Assembly: GCF_024228315.1 (NCBI RefSeq) | Contig: NZ_CP100455.1 | Location: forward strand, 434,001 to 498,000 | Direction of reading: 5' to 3' | DNA from: Halomarina pelagica | Lineage (GTDB): Archaea > Halobacteriota > Halobacteria > Halobacteriales > Haloarculaceae | DNA: 64,000 nt | Shown here: positions 2,890 to 15,426 of the stretch, one piece after another | How positions within the stretch are numbered: the first letter of the stretch is position 1 | How the letters are laid out: every line of letters starts with the position of its first letter | Program-made: the position numbers and the translations under genes | The notes under the pieces: model-generated | What the model saw: the letters and a program-made list of their open reading frames with translations, nothing else | What the model was told of the DNA's origin: nothing | The model's database searches: none

Positions 2890-3890
2890 CGCTCATCCGT
2901 AGCACATTGTTGATTTCACAGCGTCGCTCGAACAGCGTGTTTGAGAGCGTCTCGACCGGGTTTCCGAAACAGTTCCCGACGTAGTTGGAACGCTCTGAGA
3001 TACTGCGTCAACTTGTCTTTCGAGACGCCTCGATGGGGCGAGAGCCACCGTCGCGTCAGCGACGCGTGGCTCTCGCAGGTGTTGACGTGAACTTCCTCAT
3101 CGGCGTATTCGCCGTCGCCGTGGACGACGTATTCGCGGTCGAATGCGTCGTCGTCTTCGAGCGGTTCGTACGCTCGAAAGCCGTCGGTATAGACCGTGAG
3201 CGACTCCTCTTTGCGGTCAGCAAGGAGGAGTCGAATCGTCGATTCGTCGGCGGCTTTCGCTGGAATCACGTACCGCTGTCCGGTCCCGCGATCAGCGATT
3301 ATGAACACGGGTGGCTTGTCGCCATCGTACGAACCTCGCCCGCGCGTGGACAGGCCACGCGAGCGCGACTCCTGGTCGCGCTCGCGGCCTTTCTTCCCCG
3401 CGTTGACGTACACTTCGTCGATTTCAACCGGACCAACGAGATCGAGGGAAGGCGCATCGAGCGCTCTGGCGAAGCGCTCGATGCGCCGGTGCATCGTCTT
3501 GTGTGTTACCTCGATTTCGCACTGTAGTTGGCGGAGACTGGTGTTAAACCGGAGAAACGCGTAGATCGAGAACAACCACCGGCGGAGCGCGATCTTCGAG
3601 TGAGCAAAGATTGTGCCCGTCTTGTCGTTGAACGTGCGGTCACAATTCTTACAGAGATACCGCTGAAACTCTCTGTAGCTGCCGTTTCTGACCGTTCGGT
3701 CAGAACGGCAGCGAGGACAGGTAACACCGTCACGCCAGCGAACCTGCGCCAACAGGTCCGCTGCGACCGATTCCGACCCAAACACATCTAGCGGAATCAT
3801 TCGTGTCGGGCACCGCTGACGCGGTGCCCTTGTCCTCTTCGACTCCGCAGCGACCGCTCTGCAGTATCAACAATCTCCTACGCAAGAGCG
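2890..3890 (-). mobile_element. Complete IS1595-family insertion sequence
   Basis: The 1,001-bp element is flanked by a perfect 8-bp direct repeat TACTCCTT (2882-2889 and 3891-3898), the target-duplication length expected of IS1595. Its imperfect 25-bp terminal inverted repeats (2890-2914 and 3866-3890) share 21 of 25 positions, with the inner core ATTGTTGAT identical. It carries a single intact transposase gene and disrupts the sulfatase-like gene. Confidence 0.88.
2916..3800 (-). CDS. IS1595-family (ISXO2-like) transposase
   Basis: The 294-aa protein is intact. An N-terminal zinc ribbon has CPRC near residue 29 and CKNC near residue 50. A helix-turn-helix stretch (LRQLQCEIEVTHKTMHRRIE) follows, then an RNase H-fold DDE-type domain with VEIDEVYV (first Asp), VYTDGFRAYE (second Asp) and the HVNTCESHASLTRRWLSPHRG region that carries the third catalytic position. 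The C-terminal segment GVSKDKLTQYLRAFQLRREL is typical of the ISXO2/IS1595 domain. The gene fills the element flanked by TACTCCTT duplications, so it is probably active or recently so. The start at 3800 follows the right terminal repeat closely. Confidence 0.9.
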   Translation of the reverse strand: MIPLDVFGSESVAADLLAQVRWRDGVTCPRCRSDRTVRNGSYREFQRYLCKNCDRTFNDKTGTIFAHSKIALRRWLFSIYAFLRFNTSLRQLQCEIEVTHKTMHRRIERFARALDAPSLDLVGPVEIDEVYVNAGKKGRERDQESRSRGLSTRGRGSYDGDKPPVFIIADRGTGQRYVIPAKAADESTIRLLLADRKEESLTVYTDGFRAYEPLEDDDAFDREYVVHGDGEYADEEVHVNTCESHASLTRRWLSPHRGVSKDKLTQYLRAFQLRRELFRKPGRDALKHAVRATL

Positions 3891-5981: not shown

Positions 5982-7361
5982 GTGTCAGCCGTGACTCGAC
6001 TCCCCCACGACGTTATCGGTGCCGGGTACGTGAGCACGGCCGGCTGGACGCTCCTCGAAGACCTCGTCGACCTGAACAACCGGATGCCCGGACAGGAGGG
6101 TGAGCGACGGGCCGCAGAGCGGATCGAACGGCAGTTCCGCGAGGACGGCCTCCGCGACGTGACGGTGACGGAGTTCCCCATCCCCGGGTGGTGGCGCGGC
6201 CGCAGCTCCCTCGAACTGCCGGAGCGCGAGCAGCGATTCGGCCGGTCCCACGAGATCGTCGCCCTCCCGGGCACCCCCGCGGGCGAGGTCGCCGGCGAGA
6301 TCGTCGACGTGGGCTACGGACTCGCGGCGGACTTCGAGGGCGTCGACCTCGAGGGGAAGATCGTGATGGCCTCGAGCCTCACGCCCGAGAGCCACGACCG
6401 CTGGGTCCACCGCTGTGAGAAGTACGGGTACGCCGTCGAGGCGGGGGCGAGCGGCTTCCTGTTCTACAACCACCTGGAGGGGAATCTCCCGCCGACCGGC
6501 GACGTCGGCGAGCGGAACGGCCCGGCCGCGATCCCGGCGGTGGGCATCAGCCGCGAACTCGGGAAGCGACTCGTCCGGTACTGCGCCGACGGCCCCGAGC
6601 GGGCGGTCCTCACCGTGGACTGCCGCAACGAACCGGCGACGACGCGGAACGTCGAGGCGGTGGTCGGCCCCGATACCGACCGCGAGGTGCTGTTCACCGC
6701 CCACGTCGACGCGCACGACGTGGGAACCGGCGCGAACGACAACGGCTTCGGCTGCGCGCTCGTCGTCGAGGTCGCGCGGCTCCTCCGGGCCGTCGAGGAC
6801 GACCTCGACACGCGCGTCCGGTTCGTCACCTTCGGCGCGGAGGAGACGGGGCTGTACGGGTCGTACTACTGGACGCACACCCGCGACCTCTCGACGGTGA
6901 AGTGCGTCCTCAACGTCGACGGCGCGGGCTACTCGCGGAGCCTCGACGTGCACCCCCACGGGTTCGACGGGATCGGGGAGGTCTTCGAGGAGGTGAGCGA
7001 CGAGTACGGGGTACCGATCTCGATCGGCGAGCGGCTCCGACCCCACAGCGACCACTGGCCGTTCGTCCAGCGGGGCGTCCCCGGCGCGCAGGGGCGATCC
7101 CTCTCGTCCGACAACAGCCGGGGGTGGGGCCACACCCACGGCGACACGCTCGACAAACTCGACGTCCGCGACCTGCGGGACCTCGCGATCCTCTGTGCCA
7201 GCGGCGTGAAGGAACTGGCCTCGGCCGACCGGGAGTTCGAGCACGTCCCCTCCGAGGCGGTCCGCGAGACGGCCGTCGAGCAGGGGTTCGAGGAGGGACT
7301 GCGACGGACCGGCACCTGGCCCTGGGCGGAGGAGCAGGCCGACTGGCCCTGGGAGGCCTGA
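5982..7361 (+). CDS. M28-family zinc metallopeptidase (aminopeptidase)
   Basis: The 459-aa protein has a PA (protease-associated) domain near residues 90-190 (GEIVDVGYGLAADFEGVD, then a GKIVM strand). An M28 domain with all five expected ligand motifs follows: AHVDAHD, GANDNG, GAEETG, NVDGAG and GHTHGDT. It probably removes N-terminal residues from peptides using a two-zinc centre. No signal peptide is present, so it should be cytosolic. The GTG at 5982 is the first in-frame start and precedes the conserved domain by about 20 residues. It lies just ahead of a peptide-type ABC transporter, which suggests digestion of imported peptides. Confidence 0.85.
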   Translation: MSAVTRLPHDVIGAGYVSTAGWTLLEDLVDLNNRMPGQEGERRAAERIERQFREDGLRDVTVTEFPIPGWWRGRSSLELPEREQRFGRSHEIVALPGTPAGEVAGEIVDVGYGLAADFEGVDLEGKIVMASSLTPESHDRWVHRCEKYGYAVEAGASGFLFYNHLEGNLPPTGDVGERNGPAAIPAVGISRELGKRLVRYCADGPERAVLTVDCRNEPATTRNVEAVVGPDTDREVLFTAHVDAHDVGTGANDNGFGCALVVEVARLLRAVEDDLDTRVRFVTFGAEETGLYGSYYWTHTRDLSTVKCVLNVDGAGYSRSLDVHPHGFDGIGEVFEEVSDEYGVPISIGERLRPHSDHWPFVQRGVPGAQGRSLSSDNSRGWGHTHGDTLDKLDVRDLRDLAILCASGVKELASADREFEHVPSEAVRETAVEQGFEEGLRRTGTWPWAEEQADWPWEA

Positions 7362-7578: not shown

Positions 7579-7743
7579 CGCGTCCAGGGCGGCGAACGAG
7601 ACGGTGACCTGAGCGGCGAACGGGACGGTGACACGTGCGGCGGCGGACCGTGGGTCGTCGACTCCGTGCCGGGACGTGACGTAGCCGGTACATGACGTAT
7701 TTACAGTACTGTGATTCCGACGGACGTGGCGGTCCAGCTAACG

Positions 7744-7754
7744 AAATATTCATA
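7744..7754 (+). promoter_or_regulatory. TATA box of the peptide transporter operon
   Basis: AAATATTCATA is centred about 30 bp upstream of ATG 7780, in an AT-rich patch within GC-rich DNA. This spacing predicts a leaderless transcript starting at or near 7780 and argues against an in-frame start further upstream at 7711. Confidence 0.6.
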
Positions 7755-7779
7755 TGCACCGGATCTGAGGTTGGTGCGT

Positions 7780-9405
7780 ATGACTCAATCTAACACCACC
7801 CCCCGAAGCCGTCGCGAGTTCCTCGCCCGGGTCGGGGGAGCGAGCGGGCTGGTCGGACTGACGGCGCTGGCCGGCTGCAGCACGACCGAACCGAAGGGCA
7901 ACGGTTCGGGCGGCGACGGGAAGAGCAGCCTCCCGAAGTACACGTACATCAACAACCCCCAGAGCTACTCGCCGGAGCGCCACGACGCGATCAACCTCAT
8001 CGCCGACACGATGAACAAGGCGGGGTTCGACGTCGACGTGAAGGTGATGGAGTGGGGGTCGCTGTACAGCACGGTCACCCAGCAGCACGACTACGGGTTC
8101 GCGACGTGGTGGACGTTCTTCACCATCGACCCGGGGATCCTCCTCCCCGAGTACTTCCACTCCCGGAACACCGGCGAGGGCGAGGGGAACTACTCCGGAT
8201 ACACGAACGAGGACCTCGATCCGAAGCTCGAAGCCCAGTTGCGGACCGCAGACACCGCGAAGCGGACGGGGCTCATCCACGATATCCAGAAGACGCTGAT
8301 GGAGGACGTGCCCACGATGCCCATCGCGCAGATGCCGGACATCATGGCGCACAACAAGGACCAGGTCACCAACTGGAAACACCACATCGCGGGGTTCAAC
8401 TCCTACTACACGATGGTGAACCTGAAGGTGAACAACGAGAACAACGAGCTTCGCGGAACCTGGCCCGAGTCGCTCTCGACGATGAACGTCCTCGGGCACA
8501 ACGACGAGAACAAGCACAACTACCAGTTCAACGTCATCTACGACCGGCTCATCCAGTTCGACGAGAACATGAAGCCGGACCCCGAGTTGGGGCTCGCGAC
8601 CGACTGGAAGCGGGTCGACGAGACCACGATGGAGTACACCGTCCGCGAGTCGACGTGGCACGACGGCGAGCCGCTCACCGCGGAGGACGTGGCGTTCTCG
8701 TTCAACTACATCAAGGACAACGAGATCCCGCTCTACACGCTCCAGAACCAGTACATCGAGGGCGCGGAGGTCACCGGCGAGAAGACGGTGCAGCTCACGC
8801 TGGCACAGAACCTCGGCCCGGTGAACACCATCCTCGGGAGCCAGATCCCGATCATCCCCAAGCACAAGTGGGAGTCGCGCTCGAACCCGGCGAAGGCGAC
8901 GATCTCTAACCCCGTCGGGAGCGGCCCGCTCGTGTTCGACTACTGGGACAAGGGGAGCGAACTGGGGCTGAAGAAGAACCCCGACCACTTCGTCGGCGTC
9001 GACTTCGACAGGCGGTTCTGGCGGATCATCCCCGAGACCTCCACGCAGTGGGAACTGCTGAAGGGCGGGGACCTCAACTACATCCCGTTCGGCGGCATCA
9101 GCCGGCAGTTGAAGCAGAACGAGAAGCTCGACCAGATCGGCGTCGCGAAGGCACAGAGCACCTCGTTCTGGCACTTCACGGCCAACAACCGCAAGGAGGG
9201 GCTCGGGAAGACCGCCGTGCGACAGGCGGCGGTCAACTGCATCCCGCGGACGCAGATCGTCGAGCAGATCCTCTTTGGCTACCCCGACGTCGGCTCCAAC
9301 GTCGTGTCGAAGGCGTTCGGCGACCTCCACACCGACGACGTGAAGACGTACGAGGAGAGCCTCGAAGCCGCGAAAAAGAAGCTGAAGGACGCCGGCTACC
9401 TGTGA
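7780..9405 (+). CDS. Circularly permuted family-5 substrate-binding protein (peptide type)
   Basis: 541 aa with a Tat signal and lipobox at the N-terminus (RSRREFLARVGG, then TALAGCS), so it is a membrane-anchored extracellular protein. Domain order is unusual. Residues about 45-210 match the C-terminal half of DppA/OppA-type proteins: PERHDAINLIADTMNKAGFD, VKVMEWGSLYS, the ATWWTFFTIDP segment and GYTNEDLD. Residues about 240-541 match the family's N-terminal half: VIYDRLIQFDENMKPDPELG, WKRVDETTMEYTVRESTWHD, GEPLTAEDVAFSFN, NPVGSGPLVFDYW. It ends at AKKKLKDAGYL, which in DppA is the mid-protein LLKEAG site. It heads a binding protein-permease-permease-ATPase-ATPase operon. The ligand is probably an oligopeptide, inferred from the family and neighbouring peptidases. 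Confidence 0.85.
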   Translation: MTQSNTTPRSRREFLARVGGASGLVGLTALAGCSTTEPKGNGSGGDGKSSLPKYTYINNPQSYSPERHDAINLIADTMNKAGFDVDVKVMEWGSLYSTVTQQHDYGFATWWTFFTIDPGILLPEYFHSRNTGEGEGNYSGYTNEDLDPKLEAQLRTADTAKRTGLIHDIQKTLMEDVPTMPIAQMPDIMAHNKDQVTNWKHHIAGFNSYYTMVNLKVNNENNELRGTWPESLSTMNVLGHNDENKHNYQFNVIYDRLIQFDENMKPDPELGLATDWKRVDETTMEYTVRESTWHDGEPLTAEDVAFSFNYIKDNEIPLYTLQNQYIEGAEVTGEKTVQLTLAQNLGPVNTILGSQIPIIPKHKWESRSNPAKATISNPVGSGPLVFDYWDKGSELGLKKNPDHFVGVDFDRRFWRIIPETSTQWELLKGGDLNYIPFGGISRQLKQNEKLDQIGVAKAQSTSFWHFTANNRKEGLGKTAVRQAAVNCIPRTQIVEQILFGYPDVGSNVVSKAFGDLHTDDVKTYEESLEAAKKKLKDAGYL

Positions 9406-9446: not shown

Positions 9447-10424
9447 ATGGGAAAAGCACAATTCTTCGTCAGACGGGTGCTGCAGCTGGCCGTCACCTTC
9501 TGGGCCGTCGGGAGCGTCCTGTTCCTGCTCTTCCGGTTGATGCCCGGCGATCCGACGTCGTACATCATCTCCGGGCAGATGACCGCGGAGGCGAGACGAC
9601 AGATCATCGCGAGCTACGGCCTCAACGAACCGCTCTACGTCCAGTACGTGAAGTACATGGGGAACGCCCTGACGCTCAACTTCGGTCAGTCGTTCCACTC
9701 GAATCAGCCCGTCTCGGCGGTGCTCGCGACGTACCTCCCCAACACGCTCGTGTTGATGCTCACGGCGTTCGTCATCGCGTACGTCCTCGGCATCCTCCTG
9801 GGCGTGCTCGCCGGTTGGTACCGCGGTTCGCGGTTCGAGCGGAGCACGGTGATCGTCGCCCTCCTCGCGCGGAGCGTTCCGGCGTTCTGGGTCGGGTTGC
9901 TCGTGCTCTGGATCTTCGGCGCGGAGATGGGCCTCATCCCCATGAGCGGCATGACGAGCCTCGGCCACGAGAACACGAGCTTCTGGGGGATGGTCCTCTC
10001 GATCGACTTCCTCAGGCACCTGGCGGCACCGGCGCTCGTCCTCGCGTACTACTACATGGGCTACCCGCTGCTCATCATGCGCAGCAGCATGCTCGAGGTC
10101 CTCCGCGAGGACTTCATCGACGTGTGTCGCGCCAAGGGGCTGAGCGAGCGGAAGGTCATGTTCAACCACGCGGCGCGCAACGCCCTCCTCCCCATCGTCA
10201 CCGCGGCGGCGATCGCCCTCGGCTACGCGGTCGCGGGGAGCGTCCTCATCGAGACGGTGTTCGGCTGGCCCGGCATCGGCCGTGAGATGATCAACGCCGT
10301 GCTCCGGCGCGACTACCCGGTGGCACAGGGGACGTTCATGGTCCTCGCGGCGACGATCATCATCATGAACTTCCTCGCGGATCTGGCCTACGGCTACCTC
10401 GACCCGCGGGTGACCTACGACTGA
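9447..10424 (+). CDS. dppB: ABC permease, DppB/OppB type
   Basis: 325 aa with the family's standard layout. A first helix (FFVRRVLQLAVTFWAVGSVL) leads into the RLMPGDP motif of DppB proteins, followed by a periplasmic-type loop (GLNEPLYVQYVKYMGN) and five further helices. The cytoplasmic EAA loop reads DFIDVCRAKGLSERKVMFNH, which contacts the ATPases. It forms the transmembrane channel with the next gene. It lies 41 bp after the binding-protein gene and 2 bp before dppC. The symbol follows family position; the transported peptide is not determined. Confidence 0.9.
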   Translation: MGKAQFFVRRVLQLAVTFWAVGSVLFLLFRLMPGDPTSYIISGQMTAEARRQIIASYGLNEPLYVQYVKYMGNALTLNFGQSFHSNQPVSAVLATYLPNTLVLMLTAFVIAYVLGILLGVLAGWYRGSRFERSTVIVALLARSVPAFWVGLLVLWIFGAEMGLIPMSGMTSLGHENTSFWGMVLSIDFLRHLAAPALVLAYYYMGYPLLIMRSSMLEVLREDFIDVCRAKGLSERKVMFNHAARNALLPIVTAAAIALGYAVAGSVLIETVFGWPGIGREMINAVLRRDYPVAQGTFMVLAATIIIMNFLADLAYGYLDPRVTYD

Positions 10425-10426
10425 CC

Positions 10427-11473
10427 ATGAGTTCTGAACACTCAACCGACGCCTCGGCCCCCCAGCGGAGTTCGATCTTCGCCGACCTGGACGAGGCCGA
10501 CGCCGACGAGATCGACAAGTGGCAACGCACGCTTCGGCTCTGGCGGGAGACGCTCGCGGAACACTGGTCGCTGCTGACCGACGAGCTGTCGGTCAAGCTG
10601 TCGATGCTGACGCTCGCGTTCTTCATCCTCGTGGCGATCTTCGCCCGGCCGATCGTCGTGCCCGTCCCCCTCCCGGGCGTGGGGGGCGTGATCGTCCAGC
10701 CGTTCTCGTTGGCCCCCTACCCGCCGCTCGAACGGCAGTACACCGACGGTCTGACCATCGCGAAGTCGCTCGAACCCGCCTTCCTGGGCGGGCATCCGGA
10801 CTACCTGCTCGGCACGACCCAGCAGGGGTACGACATCTTCAGCCAGCTGGTCGCCGGCTCCCGCTCGGCGCTGCTCGTCGGCCTGCTCGCGGCCGTCTTC
10901 ACCGCCGGGATCGGGACGATGGTCGGGCTGATCGCCGGCTACTACGGCGGCTACGTCGACGACGCGCTGATGCGGTTCGTCGACTTCCTCTACGGCCTCC
11001 CGCTCCTGCCGACCGTGATCATCCTGGTCGCGGTCCTCGGCCCGAGCCTGTTCAACATCATCGCCGCGGTCGTCATCCTCCAGTGGCGCGCGACCGCGCG
11101 CGTGATCCGGTCGCAGGCGCTCTCGCTGCGCGAACGGCCGTTCGTGAAGGCCGCCCAGGTGGCGGGCGCGAGCGACTGGTACATCCTCACCCGACACCTC
11201 GCGCCGAACGTCCTCCCGATGTCGTTTCTCTACGGCTCCTTCGCGATCGCGTGGGCGATCATCACCGAGGCGGGCGTCTCCTTCCTCGGTCTCGGCGACC
11301 CCAACACGGTGTCCTGGGGGACGATGCTCCAGAGCGCCCGCTCGTACAACGCGCTGACGTTCGGCCAGTGGTGGTGGTTCGTCCCGCCCGGCATCTGCAT
11401 CGCGCTCGTGGTCATCAGCGGCTTCCTCATCGGCCGCGGCTACGAGGAGATCACCAACCCTAAACTTCAGTGA
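10427..11473 (+). CDS. dppC: ABC permease, DppC/OppC type
   Basis: 348 aa. An acidic cytosolic N-terminus of about 50 residues precedes a first helix (LSMLTLAFFILVAIF). A large loop carries LLGTTQQGYDIFSQLVAGSR, the family's GTD-GRD-like signature, and the EAA loop reads FVKAAQVAGASDWYILTRH. Five further helices end in GFLIGRGYEEITNP. The last codon is CAG and the stop TGA (11471-11473) lies in the pentamer TGACA, which borders the inserted TnpB element. Before insertion the TGA would have overlapped a GTG start of dppD. Partner of dppB in the membrane channel. Confidence 0.9.
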   Translation: MSSEHSTDASAPQRSSIFADLDEADADEIDKWQRTLRLWRETLAEHWSLLTDELSVKLSMLTLAFFILVAIFARPIVVPVPLPGVGGVIVQPFSLAPYPPLERQYTDGLTIAKSLEPAFLGGHPDYLLGTTQQGYDIFSQLVAGSRSALLVGLLAAVFTAGIGTMVGLIAGYYGGYVDDALMRFVDFLYGLPLLPTVIILVAVLGPSLFNIIAAVVILQWRATARVIRSQALSLRERPFVKAAQVAGASDWYILTRHLAPNVLPMSFLYGSFAIAWAIITEAGVSFLGLGDPNTVSWGTMLQSARSYNALTFGQWWWFVPPGICIALVVISGFLIGRGYEEITNPKLQ

Positions 11474-11600
11474 CATCCTCACCTGCCCTAAAAGGCGGGG
11501 CTTCCTACAAGGGAAGCCTCGTCGTCGGAGGTTTCAGAACTGAAGTCCCCGAGCGTCATCTGTCGGGATTTCCGACTCGACTCGCGGTGTCCTGTGGTGC
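11471..11600 (-). ncRNA. Candidate TnpB guide RNA (omega/reRNA, sotRNA-like)
   Basis: In the IS200/IS605 group the RNA that programmes TnpB overlaps the 3' end of tnpB and extends through the right-end hairpin into flanking DNA. Here that corresponds to the minus strand from inside tnpB through the hairpin at about 11482-11500 to the right end at 11471. The guide would then begin CTGAAGTTTAGGGTTGG, antisense to the end of dppC. The upstream limit is a guess, and no transcript evidence is available from sequence. Confidence 0.45.
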
Positions 11601-12789
11601 TGTCACGAGCACTCCCGTCCCGAGGCGAGTCATCGTCTGCCGGTTTCCAAGGCAGGCTCTCTCCCCACGGGTTGAGGCGACTGGCGACCTTCGCCGCCGC
11701 GTTGATGTCCGCTTGGTACTCCGTCACCCAACAGTCGTCGTGTGGACAGACGAACGCCGCCTGTGTGCTCCGCCGACCGAGCCGGTTGCAGGCGTGACAC
11801 GTCTGGGACGTGTACGCCGGGTTCACGAACCGCACCGGAATCCCCGCGTCGAGGGCTTTGTCCTCGATGCGTCCGGTGAGCCGGGCGAACGCCCAGGCGT
11901 GAAGCCGGCGGTTCATCCACTTGCCGTAGTCAAGGCGCTCGCGGATGTACGACAGGTCTTCAAGCACAATAACGGGGTTCTCGAACTGTCGAGCATATTC
12001 GACGGCCTCACGGGATGCCTTCTCGACAATGTCCGTGAGGGCGTTCTGGTAGTGCGTGAACCGTTCGTCAATTCGCCACTCGGCGTCTCGCCGTTGAAGC
12101 CGCTGGAGGGTCGTGAACATCTCTTTGCGGAGGTGTCGCGCCCGTCCACCGTCGTAAATGTACGGTTGGGTTGGAGTACCGTCCTTCAGGGCACAGCCCG
12201 TCAGGAGTTTCGATTCACCGATATCGAAGCCGACCGGCGTCGGGTCGTCCGGTTCCGCTGGTTCTGCAACCTCGTACTCGACGGTGACGTGAAGCACCCA
12301 GCTCGTGCGGTACTCTTGGAGTCGGAACTCTCCGACCGACACGTCGCCGTCGAGCAGGTCGCTCCACAACTCCCGCTGAGCGGGGTTGATACGGAGCGGA
12401 ATCCAGAAGGCGTTGCCACGTCCGGCCTGCGGGACGCGCCAGCAGAACTCGTGCGTGCGCTCCTCGGAGTGGTCGAGACGCCACCCTCGGTTCGTGAAGC
12501 GAACGGGGTGGTCGTCGTCCAATTCGGAGGCGTTGTACGTCCGGCGGAGTTGCGGGACGTAGTTTTTGAGCGCGTCCTTCGCGTAGGACGTGAGCGTGTA
12601 CGGCGTGACGACGTCGTTGACCGCCGTCTGCGTGTTCGCGCCGCTCTCGAACGCTTCGGAGAGCGCACGGCGGTACGTCGCCACGGTCCGCTGAAGCCGG
12701 TGCTCTTTGTGCGCCGTTGGTGGCGCGAGCGTGGCTTCGAGCGTTTTCGTGGCGGTGACTGTCACAACAGTATCAACGAATCTATGCAA
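11488..12789 (-). CDS. tnpB: TnpB RNA-guided endonuclease, IS1341 type
   Basis: 433 aa. After an N-terminal helical/wedge region of about 180 residues comes a RuvC-like nuclease with its three acidic positions: Asp in PVGFDIGESK, Glu in VIVLEDLSYI and Asp in YQADINAAA. A zinc ribbon (CHAC then CPHDDC) sits between the last two. A Ser/Asp-rich tail of about 60 residues follows. All catalytic residues are present, so the protein looks competent. TnpB proteins cut DNA matching their guide next to a target-adjacent motif. The start at 12789 is the longest choice; an internal GTG at TVTATKT is possible. Opposite in direction to the dpp operon. Confidence 0.9.
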   Translation of the reverse strand: MHRFVDTVVTVTATKTLEATLAPPTAHKEHRLQRTVATYRRALSEAFESGANTQTAVNDVVTPYTLTSYAKDALKNYVPQLRRTYNASELDDDHPVRFTNRGWRLDHSEERTHEFCWRVPQAGRGNAFWIPLRINPAQRELWSDLLDGDVSVGEFRLQEYRTSWVLHVTVEYEVAEPAEPDDPTPVGFDIGESKLLTGCALKDGTPTQPYIYDGGRARHLRKEMFTTLQRLQRRDAEWRIDERFTHYQNALTDIVEKASREAVEYARQFENPVIVLEDLSYIRERLDYGKWMNRRLHAWAFARLTGRIEDKALDAGIPVRFVNPAYTSQTCHACNRLGRRSTQAAFVCPHDDCWVTEYQADINAAAKVASRLNPWGESLPWKPADDDSPRDGSARDSTTGHRESSRKSRQMTLGDFSSETSDDEASLVGSPAF

Positions 12790-12823
12790 GTTAAGACTAT
12801 CGAAAAACTAAGTTCTGGTAGAG

Positions 12824-12958
12824 ATGCCGAACTTGAACATCGAAGTGAGCGACGAAGAGTACGAACGACTGAGCGAAGTGAAAGACGCACACGGCCTGAC
12901 GTGGCGAGGACTCGTCATACAGGGCGCGAAAGCGTTGGACACCGAGGGGCCACTGTAG
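12824..12958 (+). CDS. 44-aa protein of the TnpB element, divergent from tnpB
   Basis: ATG 12824 to TAG 12956-12958 encodes MPNLNIEVSDEEYERLSEVK, then DAHGLTWRGLVIQGAKALD and a short tail. The EVSDEEYERLSEVKDAHGLT stretch looks like a small ribbon-helix-helix or antitoxin-like DNA-binding protein, which is an inference from pattern only. It sits between tnpB and the left end of the element, pointing away from tnpB, so it is carried by the element. AT-richer DNA just upstream (12781-12815) could hold divergent promoters for both genes. Confidence 0.6.
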   Translation: MPNLNIEVSDEEYERLSEVKDAHGLTWRGLVIQGAKALDTEGPL

Positions 12959-13028
12959 GGCGAGGGGTGGCCGTCACGAACGCGATTCCTCCCCGCCGAA
13001 AACGGCGGGATTTCCTCGCTACCGCAAG

Positions 13029-14075
13029 ATGACAGGTACGCTACTCGACGTCGACGACCTCGAAGTCTACTACGAGACCGAGGACGGTCCCGCGCAGGCG
13101 GTCGACGGCGTGAGCTTCTCGCTCGAGGAGGGCGAGAACCTCGGGATCGTCGGCGAGTCCGGCTGCGGGAAGACGACGCTCGCGAAGGCGATCATCGGCA
13201 TCCTGCCCGACGCCGGCTACGTCAACGGGGGCTCGATCCGGTTCAAGGGCGAGGACCTCACGGAACTCTCCCGCCGGCAGCGACGCCGGTACCAGTGGGA
13301 GGAGATCTCGATGATCGCCCAGTCCGCGATGAACTCGCTCGACCCGGTCTACACCATCCGCGAGCAGATCGTGGAGGCCATCGAGGCCCACCGGCCGGGG
13401 ACGGGCCGGGTCGAGTCGACGCGGATCGTCACCGAGATGTTCGAACTCGTCGGGCTCGACCCCGACCGGGCCGACGACTACCCCCACCAGTTCTCCGGCG
13501 GGATGCGCCAGCGGGCGATGATCGCCATGGCGCTCGCGCTCGACCCCGCGCTGGTCCTCGCGGACGAGCCGACGACCGCCCTCGACGTCATCATGCAGGA
13601 CCAGATCTTGAAGCGCATCGGCGAGATCCAGGACCGCATCAACTCCTCGATGCTGGTCATCACCCACGACGTGAGCGTCGTCGCCGAGACGTGCGACCGC
13701 GTCATCGTGATGTACGCCGGGAAGATCGCCGAGGAGGGCCCCGTCGAGGAGATCTTCGGCTCCCCCTACCACCCCTATACGATCGGGCTCAAGCGGGCGT
13801 TCCCGAACATCAGGAAGCGCGAGCAGGACCTGATGAGCATCGCCGGCTACCCGCCGGAACTCGTCGATCCCCCCTCGGGCTGTCGGTTCGCCGCGCGCTG
13901 CCCGCTCGCCACCGATCGGTGCCGGAGCGAAGCGCCGTCGGCCCACCGGATGGGCGAGCTTCGGACGTACTGCCACTACGCGGAGGAGATCGACGCGGAG
14001 TTCCGCCCCGTCGCCGACCGGCCGGAGACGTGGGAGGGGACCGAGGCGGCGACCGAGGCCGCGGGGGGTGACTGA
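13029..14075 (+). CDS. dppD: ABC ATPase, DppD/OppD type
   Basis: 348 aa with Walker A GESGCGKTT, Q-loop IAQSAMNSLDP, signature FSGGMRQR, Walker B ALVLADEPTTALD and the switch His in VITHDVSV. The C-terminal peptide-transporter extension contains GCRFAARCPLATDRC and a later CHY, the Cys-rich segment of OppD/DppD proteins. The present ATG at 13029 uses an A donated by the TnpB element; the ancestral start was probably GTG in CAGTGACAGG. It overlaps the next gene by 8 bp. Confidence 0.9.
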   Translation: MTGTLLDVDDLEVYYETEDGPAQAVDGVSFSLEEGENLGIVGESGCGKTTLAKAIIGILPDAGYVNGGSIRFKGEDLTELSRRQRRRYQWEEISMIAQSAMNSLDPVYTIREQIVEAIEAHRPGTGRVESTRIVTEMFELVGLDPDRADDYPHQFSGGMRQRAMIAMALALDPALVLADEPTTALDVIMQDQILKRIGEIQDRINSSMLVITHDVSVVAETCDRVIVMYAGKIAEEGPVEEIFGSPYHPYTIGLKRAFPNIRKREQDLMSIAGYPPELVDPPSGCRFAARCPLATDRCRSEAPSAHRMGELRTYCHYAEEIDAEFRPVADRPETWEGTEAATEAAGGD

Positions 14076-15426
14076 CGTGAGCGACGACGAGCCCATCGTC
14101 CGCGTCGAGAACCTGAAGAAGCACTTCTCGGTGAGCGAGGGGTGGCTCGCGAGCCTCGCGCGGTCGGTCACCGGCGAGGAGGCGCGCGTCGTCCACGCCG
14201 TCGACGGCGTCTCGTTCGAACTCAACCGCGGTGAGACGCTCGGACTGGCCGGCGAGTCCGGCTGCGGGAAGACGACCACCGGCATGTCGCTGGTGAAGCT
14301 CCACGAGCCGACCGACGGGGACATCGCCTACCGCGGCACGCGCCTCGGCGAGGCGGACGACGAGGCGCTCGCCGCGTTCAGGCGGAACGCGCAGATGATC
14401 TTCCAGGACCCCTTCGAGAGCCTGAACCCGCGCATGACGGTGTACGACATCGTCGCCGAACCGCTGCGCGTCCACGACCTCCCCGCACAGACCGCCCGGG
14501 TGCGGCGGGCGCTCGAGTTCGCGGAACTCAAACCCGCGGACGCGTACTTCGATCAGTACCCACACGAGCTGTCCGGCGGCCAGCGCCAGCGCGTCGCCAT
14601 CGCCCGCGCGCTCGTGCTCGATCCGGACTTCATCGTCGCCGACGAACCCGTCTCGATGCTCGACGTGAGCCTCCGGGCGGGCGTGCTCTCGCTGCTCGAG
14701 CGGATGACCGACGAGTTCGACCTCTCGGTCGTCTACATCAGCCACGACCTCTCGCTGCTGCGTCACATGTGCGATCGCATCGCGATCATGTACATGGGGA
14801 AGATCGTGGAGATCGGCCCGACCGATCGGATCATCGAGGACCCGAAGCACCCCTACACCCGGGCGCTGGTGGACGCGGTTCCGGTCCCCGATCCCGACGC
14901 CGGCCGCGAGCGGGTCGAACTCGAGGGCGAGGTCGGCGACGTCATCGAGATCCCCTCGGGCTGTCGGTTCCGGACGCGGTGTCCGATGCTCATCGCCCCC
15001 GAGGAGTACGACCTCGGGGCCGAGGAGTGGGAGCGCGTCCGGCGGTTCATGCGCGTCGTCCAGCGGCGGGACGTCGATCACCTGTCCGCCGACGGGGAGC
15101 TCCTCCCGGAACCGGAGATCTCGGCGCGGTGCTTCCCGGAGGGGGGTCCCGCCGGGGACGCCGGGCGCGTCGTCGAGGAGGCGATCTCGCTCCTGGCGGC
15201 CGACCGGTGGGACGACGCGGAGGAACGCCTGACCGGCGCGTTCGAGGAGCGGAGCCCCTGCGCGACGGCCGTGCCGCCGCTCGAGACGAAGGCCGACGTC
15301 GCCGACGCGCGCGAGGTGGCGTGCCACCGCTACGAGGGCGAGGCCGTGGCCGATCCGGCGGGGTCCGACACCCCCGCCGGCGAGGGCGGTCGGGCGGGGA
15401 ACGCCGACGCGTCGGCCGACGACTGA
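14068..15426 (+). CDS. dppF: ABC ATPase, DppF/OppF type, extended C-terminus
   Basis: 452 aa, longer than the roughly 330 aa usual for the family. Walker A GESGCGKTT, signature LSGGQRQR, Walker B DFIVADEPVSMLD and switch SHDLSLL are all present. The peptide-transporter tail starts normally (GCRFRTRCPM). It is then split by a segment of roughly 100 residues (APEEYDLGAEEWERVRRFMR onward) before cysteines reappear in SPCATAV and VACHRYE. The extension ends in a low-complexity acidic tail. It overlaps dppD and completes the five-gene transporter. Confidence 0.88.
   Translation: MTDVSDDEPIVRVENLKKHFSVSEGWLASLARSVTGEEARVVHAVDGVSFELNRGETLGLAGESGCGKTTTGMSLVKLHEPTDGDIAYRGTRLGEADDEALAAFRRNAQMIFQDPFESLNPRMTVYDIVAEPLRVHDLPAQTARVRRALEFAELKPADAYFDQYPHELSGGQRQRVAIARALVLDPDFIVADEPVSMLDVSLRAGVLSLLERMTDEFDLSVVYISHDLSLLRHMCDRIAIMYMGKIVEIGPTDRIIEDPKHPYTRALVDAVPVPDPDAGRERVELEGEVGDVIEIPSGCRFRTRCPMLIAPEEYDLGAEEWERVRRFMRVVQRRDVDHLSADGELLPEPEISARCFPEGGPAGDAGRVVEEAISLLAADRWDDAEERLTGAFEERSPCATAVPPLETKADVADAREVACHRYEGEAVADPAGSDTPAGEGGRAGNADASADD

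Follow-up and report, generated by a model that had tools for sequence, protein, structure and literature searches.

Few nutrient receptors of microbes are as common as the family-5 substrate-binding proteins. The cluster C proteins of this family, such as E. coli DppA, OppA and NikA and the B. anthracis protein 5u4o, are homologous to both halves of a binding protein encoded in the 64,000-nucleotide stretch of DNA analyzed here (the window), and their systems share with the window BPD_transp_1 permeases and oligo_HPY ATPases in the operon and the same predicted elements. Compared with these proteins, the halves of the window protein are swapped and its new termini lie in the loop after the LLxEAG motif. 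The five-gene cassette architecture of E. coli DppABCDF (PMC12136057) is common to the window, and the two DppB permeases are homologous (205 bits), but the binding protein of the window is permuted and the permeases of permuted cassettes form a group of their own.

Another natural circular permutant has been described among ABC binding proteins. TpMglB-2 (Tp0684) of Treponema pallidum, a glucose-binding protein reported in 2016, was termed “cluster Bc,” and a permuted sub-cluster was proposed alongside it (PMC4990184). It resembles the window protein as a natural, circularly permuted and lipid-anchored ABC binding protein, represented in several bacterial groups, but it belongs to cluster B, binds a sugar, and has the first strands of its N-lobe moved to the C-terminus (PMC4990184). 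The window protein has a permuted topology and does not have the cluster B fold; no cluster B match was found for it in Pfam or among the listed PDB matches. The permutations of TpMglB-2 and of cluster C are separate events. No earlier report of a permuted cluster C binding protein was found in the open-licence papers searched, and the variant is apparently unrecorded so far.

A cluster C binding protein with its halves in reversed order

The binding-protein gene lies directly 5' of dppBCDF-like importer genes (Table 1) and thus next to BPD_transp_1 permeases and oligo_HPY ATPases. Its open reading frame (ORF) extends over 7711-9405 (+) when started at GTG, and the true start is the ATG at 7780, from which the protein reads MTQSNTTPRSRREFL...TALAGC, including the RR of a Tat motif and the lipobox LAGC with Cys33. 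R11, R12, G32 and C33 are invariant in 13 of 13 aligned haloarchaeal permuted proteins.

Table 1 Features of the binding-protein gene and its neighbors, in positions of the window
Feature	Position	Strand	Basis or remark
M28 family metallopeptidase, PA domain, signal peptide not evident	5982..7361	+	recurs beside cassettes with a permuted binding protein
Circularly permuted family-5 (SBP_bac_5, cluster C) substrate-binding lipoprotein, 541 aa	7780..9405	+	Pfam, PDB, linear profile, DppA rotation
Tat signal (SRREFL) and lipobox LAGC, predicted lipidated Cys33	7780..7878	+	translation read directly; residues invariant in relatives
Canonical C-terminal half, placed first, residues 57-210	7948..8409	+	linear profile columns 396-544
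Join of canonical C-terminus to canonical N-terminus, residues 211-238	8410..8493	+	linear profile; strand 223-228 in AF2 model
Canonical N-terminal half, placed last, residues 239-540, up to the end of the LKDAGY helix	8494..9399	+	linear profile columns 85-385
DppB-like permease (BPD_transp_1 and BPD_transp_1_N)	9447..10424	+	
DppC-like permease (BPD_transp_1)	10427..11473	+	
TnpB-bearing insertion element	11474..13028	.	exactly between dppC stop and dppD start
DppD-like ATPase (ABC_tran and oligo_HPY)	13029..14075	+	
DppF-like ATPase (ABC_tran and oligo_HPY)	14068..15426	+	

The Pfam model SBP_bac_5 matches the protein at 184.5 bits, above the family threshold of 32.4, in two separate stretches, the best of which aligns residues 291-563 of the GTG-started ORF to positions 2-278 of the 368 in the profile. 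NCBIfam models match in pieces or over one half, and the protein reaches none of the NCBIfam cut-offs, equivalog models included. When a profile built from ten linear family-5 proteins was compared with the stop-to-stop ORF, columns 396-544 matched at residues 85-238 (61 bits) and columns 85-385 at residues 267-568 (145 bits), while linear paralogues from the same genome, used as controls, each gave one continuous match. The best sequence match in the PDB, 5u4o, shows the same reversal, residues 249-540 aligning to positions 71-359 of the chain and residues 69-194 to positions 377-501. The canonical order of the two halves is thus absent by 5u4o, the linear profile and the DppA rotations described below, which makes the protein a permuted variant and not an ordinary member of SBP_bac_5: its C-terminal half stands before its N-terminal half. 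A simple N- or C-terminal fusion is ruled out, since each half is present once and the overall length is normal.

An earlier note, made from the window alone, had read the gene as a circular permutation cut at an LKEAG site, with the Tat signal and lipobox added to the new N-terminus, and had proposed alignment to a doubled DppA. When E. coli DppA was doubled, the local score rose from 261 to 337. The first 210 residues do not match the N-terminal half of DppA; past the signal and linker, residues 57-210 correspond to the C-terminal half. In a rotation scan of DppA, the best cuts fell at precursor residues 368-386 (LLKEAG/LEKGFS...PVQ/RPYNPN), and the best rotation scored 355 against 240 for the unrotated protein (scan mean 258, sd 44). 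The doubled and rotated DppA, the linear profile, the PDB matches and the structural model with its linear control concur on a circular permutation. The proposed cut agrees with the peak of the rotation scan and with the end of the protein at the end of the LKDAGY helix, and the export signal can be read directly in the translation (SRREFL and LAGC).

In linear relatives the segment past the LLxEAG helix resembles LLDEAGYKDADGDGIREKDGQKLTLQL. Most permuted proteins have a C-terminal end resembling DAGYEWDSDGRLYFPEE and start, past signal and linker, at the strand that follows the cut loop; therefore the cut lies in one surface loop. The window protein stops at GYL, with a longer tail in most relatives, and the tails of three long proteins (L098-L100) extend further than the shared cut loop. 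As judged from these alignments, the cut falls in the loop that joins the LLxEAG helix to the strand opening the canonical C-terminal half, immediately ahead of that strand. By textbook domain boundaries, we take both the cut and the new N-terminus to lie in the C-lobe.

Predicted structure

An AF2 model computed on 13 permuted proteins (pLDDT 83, pTM 0.82) was compared with that of a linear paralogue modelled likewise as a control (pLDDT 81). Elements 53-192 of the permuted model (E H E H E H H H E) correspond to the series 422-554 of the linear model, and elements 223-537 track 88-415. The elements therefore stand in a rotated series, not in the linear topology that would have spoken against the permutation. 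Foldseek, which aligns sequentially, matched the linear control to family-5 entries of the PDB over 488-531 columns with TM scores (by target) up to 0.88, whereas the permuted model aligned over 221-377 columns, about two thirds, with TM scores of at most 0.55 (among the matches listed in both cases). A short alignment with a low TM score is what would be expected if the order is broken and the fold kept. None of the PDB entries among the Foldseek matches listed has the permuted order. The folded permuted protein is predicted from these models to keep the two-lobe clamshell of cluster C.

The permuted order is widespread

Close permuted relatives in the same taxonomic family as the window genome (G040/G041 and G129) show 49-50% identity over the first half. 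Of 391 Halobacteria genomes, at least 121 gave a match to a permuted-order profile built from six permuted proteins. The matches number at least 150, and each aligns without a break to the greater part of the model; the query itself has the permuted order, and independently permuted lineages could escape it. All binding proteins of loci L051-L107 that were given the linear-profile test are permuted. Three kinds of permuted protein were found: the kind seen in the window, an orphan kind and a long kind. The orphan kind (L010/L097) is a second permuted family-5 protein of this genome (G000:C1:2805401-2807038), and no permease genes were found near it. Relatives of the orphan kind occur in several haloarchaea (L031, L032, L034, L037, L038 and L048). 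The long kind (L098-L100) is of about 640 aa, and its neighbors look like fused DppD-DppF ATPases.

Searches of plasmids with tblastn gave continuous matches in the archaea Haladaptatus, Haloprofundus, Halorussus, Natrialba magadii and Halalkalicoccus and in the bacteria Nitratireductor, Microvirga, Neorhizobium, Ketogulonicigenium and Roseomonas, the Alphaproteobacteria being sampled through plasmids only. The permuted order was confirmed with the linear profile in L101-L107. The Paenibacillus phylum was represented by 149 genomes, of which 8 gave a match at E<=1e-55 and at least 5 encode proteins that are clearly permuted; the genes of these are located in cassettes or on short contigs. The earlier note had suggested a search for the same order in haloarchaeal genomes; it is indeed present in many others, and its spread is wider than was guessed, so that it is no peculiarity of one genome. 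Being found in many haloarchaea and at least two bacterial groups, the permuted protein is a widespread variant and not a one-off. Its standard annotation is “ABC transporter substrate-binding protein,” and profile searches match these proteins in two pieces because the lineage is permuted.

Origin and interpretation

In a tree of proteins whose halves had been restored to linear order, 43 permuted proteins were split from 24 linear ones by one branch (SH-aLRT 98). Trees of the single halves require 2 and 3 changes and do not recover one permuted clade, but a single permuted clade is not rejected in either (p-AU 0.385 and 0.666). The trees of DppB (support 88) and DppC (support 85) each separate permuted from linear cassettes by a single change, and they do so across archaea and bacteria. 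Because the permeases split like the binding protein, the genes of the cassette seem to have moved together. The best reading of these trees is one old permutation carried along with its transporter, which the half-trees neither prove nor reject.

Circular permutations usually arise by tandem duplication followed by loss of the outer halves, a route that requires an A-B-A'-B' fusion. Such an arrangement was found at L152:6810-9887 (G681:C18), where two linear family-5 binding proteins, each complete, are joined in frame in a 1026-codon ORF with halves A-B-A'-B'. This fusion demonstrates that duplication intermediates of the required kind do occur, though L152 need not itself belong to the permuted lineage. 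The double protein, from the Paenibacillus phylum, has one signal peptide in front, and permease and ATPase genes adjoin it.

The window protein is very probably the receptor of a Dpp/Opp-type importer, a cluster C protein permuted after LLxEAG that has kept its fold, arose once and spread with its cassette. An in-frame tandem duplication and subsequent trimming would have produced the permutation, most likely once. In the product, a short linker connects the two canonical termini, and the new N-terminus carries the export signal, in this case Tat and lipobox. The whole transporter cassette would then have spread among haloarchaea and bacteria. The protein would act as an ordinary clamshell receptor whose two lobes close on the ligand, the ligand complex would dock on its own DppB/DppC-type permeases, and ATP hydrolysis by the two ATPases would drive import, as suggested by the cassette and by the E. 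coli system (PMC12136057). More tentatively, and less likely than not, the proteins may constitute an old, multi-phylum class, “cluster Cc,” derived from one permutation, with co-inherited permeases, an exchanged lobe at the start of the chain and altered docking. The lineage lends itself to a natural test of whether ABC import depends on the order of the chain, the position of the anchor and the pairing of lobes with permeases. It also supplies many naturally occurring circular permutants, and the fused double-protein ORF is a plausible intermediate form.

Several other explanations were considered. Insertion elements lie nearby (11474-13028 and the transposase-like ORF 2916-3800), as might be seen if the gene were a misassembly, a pseudogene or the product of two gene fragments fused together, but it is a single uninterrupted ORF with conserved residues in both halves, and the same order occurs in over 100 other genomes and on complete plasmids. 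The independent genomes refute misassembly, and an artefact of any of these kinds has a negligible probability. The halves might also fail to close on themselves and instead form a domain-swapped dimer, which a permutation with a join as short as about 28 residues can favor. This is very unlikely given the confident single-chain AF2 model with its canonical series of elements and the ordinary look of the cassette and its permeases. Repeated origin of the permuted order among family-5 proteins could be read from the 2-3 changes required by the half-only trees and from the long branches of the orphan L010 and the long L098-L100. Yet the cut loop is shared (the tails of L098-L100 run further), the full tree has a single change with support of 98, the permeases co-segregate, and one clade is not rejected, all of which make more than one origin improbable.

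With the new N-terminus in the C-lobe, anchored members would be tethered via the other lobe, and the permutation could be an adaptation that moves the anchor from N-lobe to C-lobe and so fixes the seat of the receptor on its permeases. The lipobox on the new N-terminus of the haloarchaeal members and of some members from the Paenibacillus phylum agrees with this, as does the cut in the C-lobe, which we place there from textbook domain boundaries. Tethering was likewise proposed as the driver of the unrelated TpMglB-2 permutation by its authors (PMC4990184). However, the alphaproteobacterial proteins L102-L105 have the same order with cleavable signal peptides and without the lipobox Cys, and linear paralogues are present in the same genome. 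Since these alphaproteobacterial members have no anchor, tethering is no general reason for the permutation, and anchor relocation as a universal cause is ruled out. The earlier note had suggested that permutation displaces the anchor with respect to the ligand cleft and could change docking on the permeases; for the same reason, it is not established that this displacement is what the permutation is for. We regard an adaptation for tethering as unlikely, and the permutation may at least equally well reflect history, with no strong function behind it.

The cassette, its neighbors and the cargo

With the exception of the orphan kind and two genes on short contigs, all inspected permuted genes belong to a B-C-D-F cassette; the binding-protein gene comes after dppF at two of the loci from the Paenibacillus phylum. 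Of 31 permuted cassettes whose flanks were long enough, 13 have a homolog of the M28 peptidase nearby, against 0 of 20 linear ones (P = 0.0006, Fisher's exact test). This association is only indicative, given the relatedness of the loci and a query that favors permuted cassettes. The peptidase homolog neighbors 9 of the 12 cassettes in the window's own clade and all four alphaproteobacterial permuted cassettes. Genes for hydantoinase/oxoprolinase, M20 or racemase are further neighbors of alphaproteobacterial cassettes. In DppA, the residues that hold the ligand charges are R383 and D436 (PMC12136057). The corresponding columns of the window protein hold Q and F, with an uncertain alignment at 436. 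Without conservation of R383 and D436, a dipeptide as the ligand is unsupported, and this candidate, modelled on DppA, was rejected. We consider it likely, though weakly so, that the cargo consists of short peptides or amino-acid derivatives that would later be cut by the neighboring M28 peptidase.

The insertion element of the window contains TnpB at 11488-12789 (-) and a small ORF at 12824-12958 (+). Relatives lack the element, D directly following C in them, and it is foreign to the ancestral cassette. By splitting dppC from dppD, it might alter expression. Further upstream in the window, the ORF at 2916-3800 (-) resembles an IS1595-type transposase.
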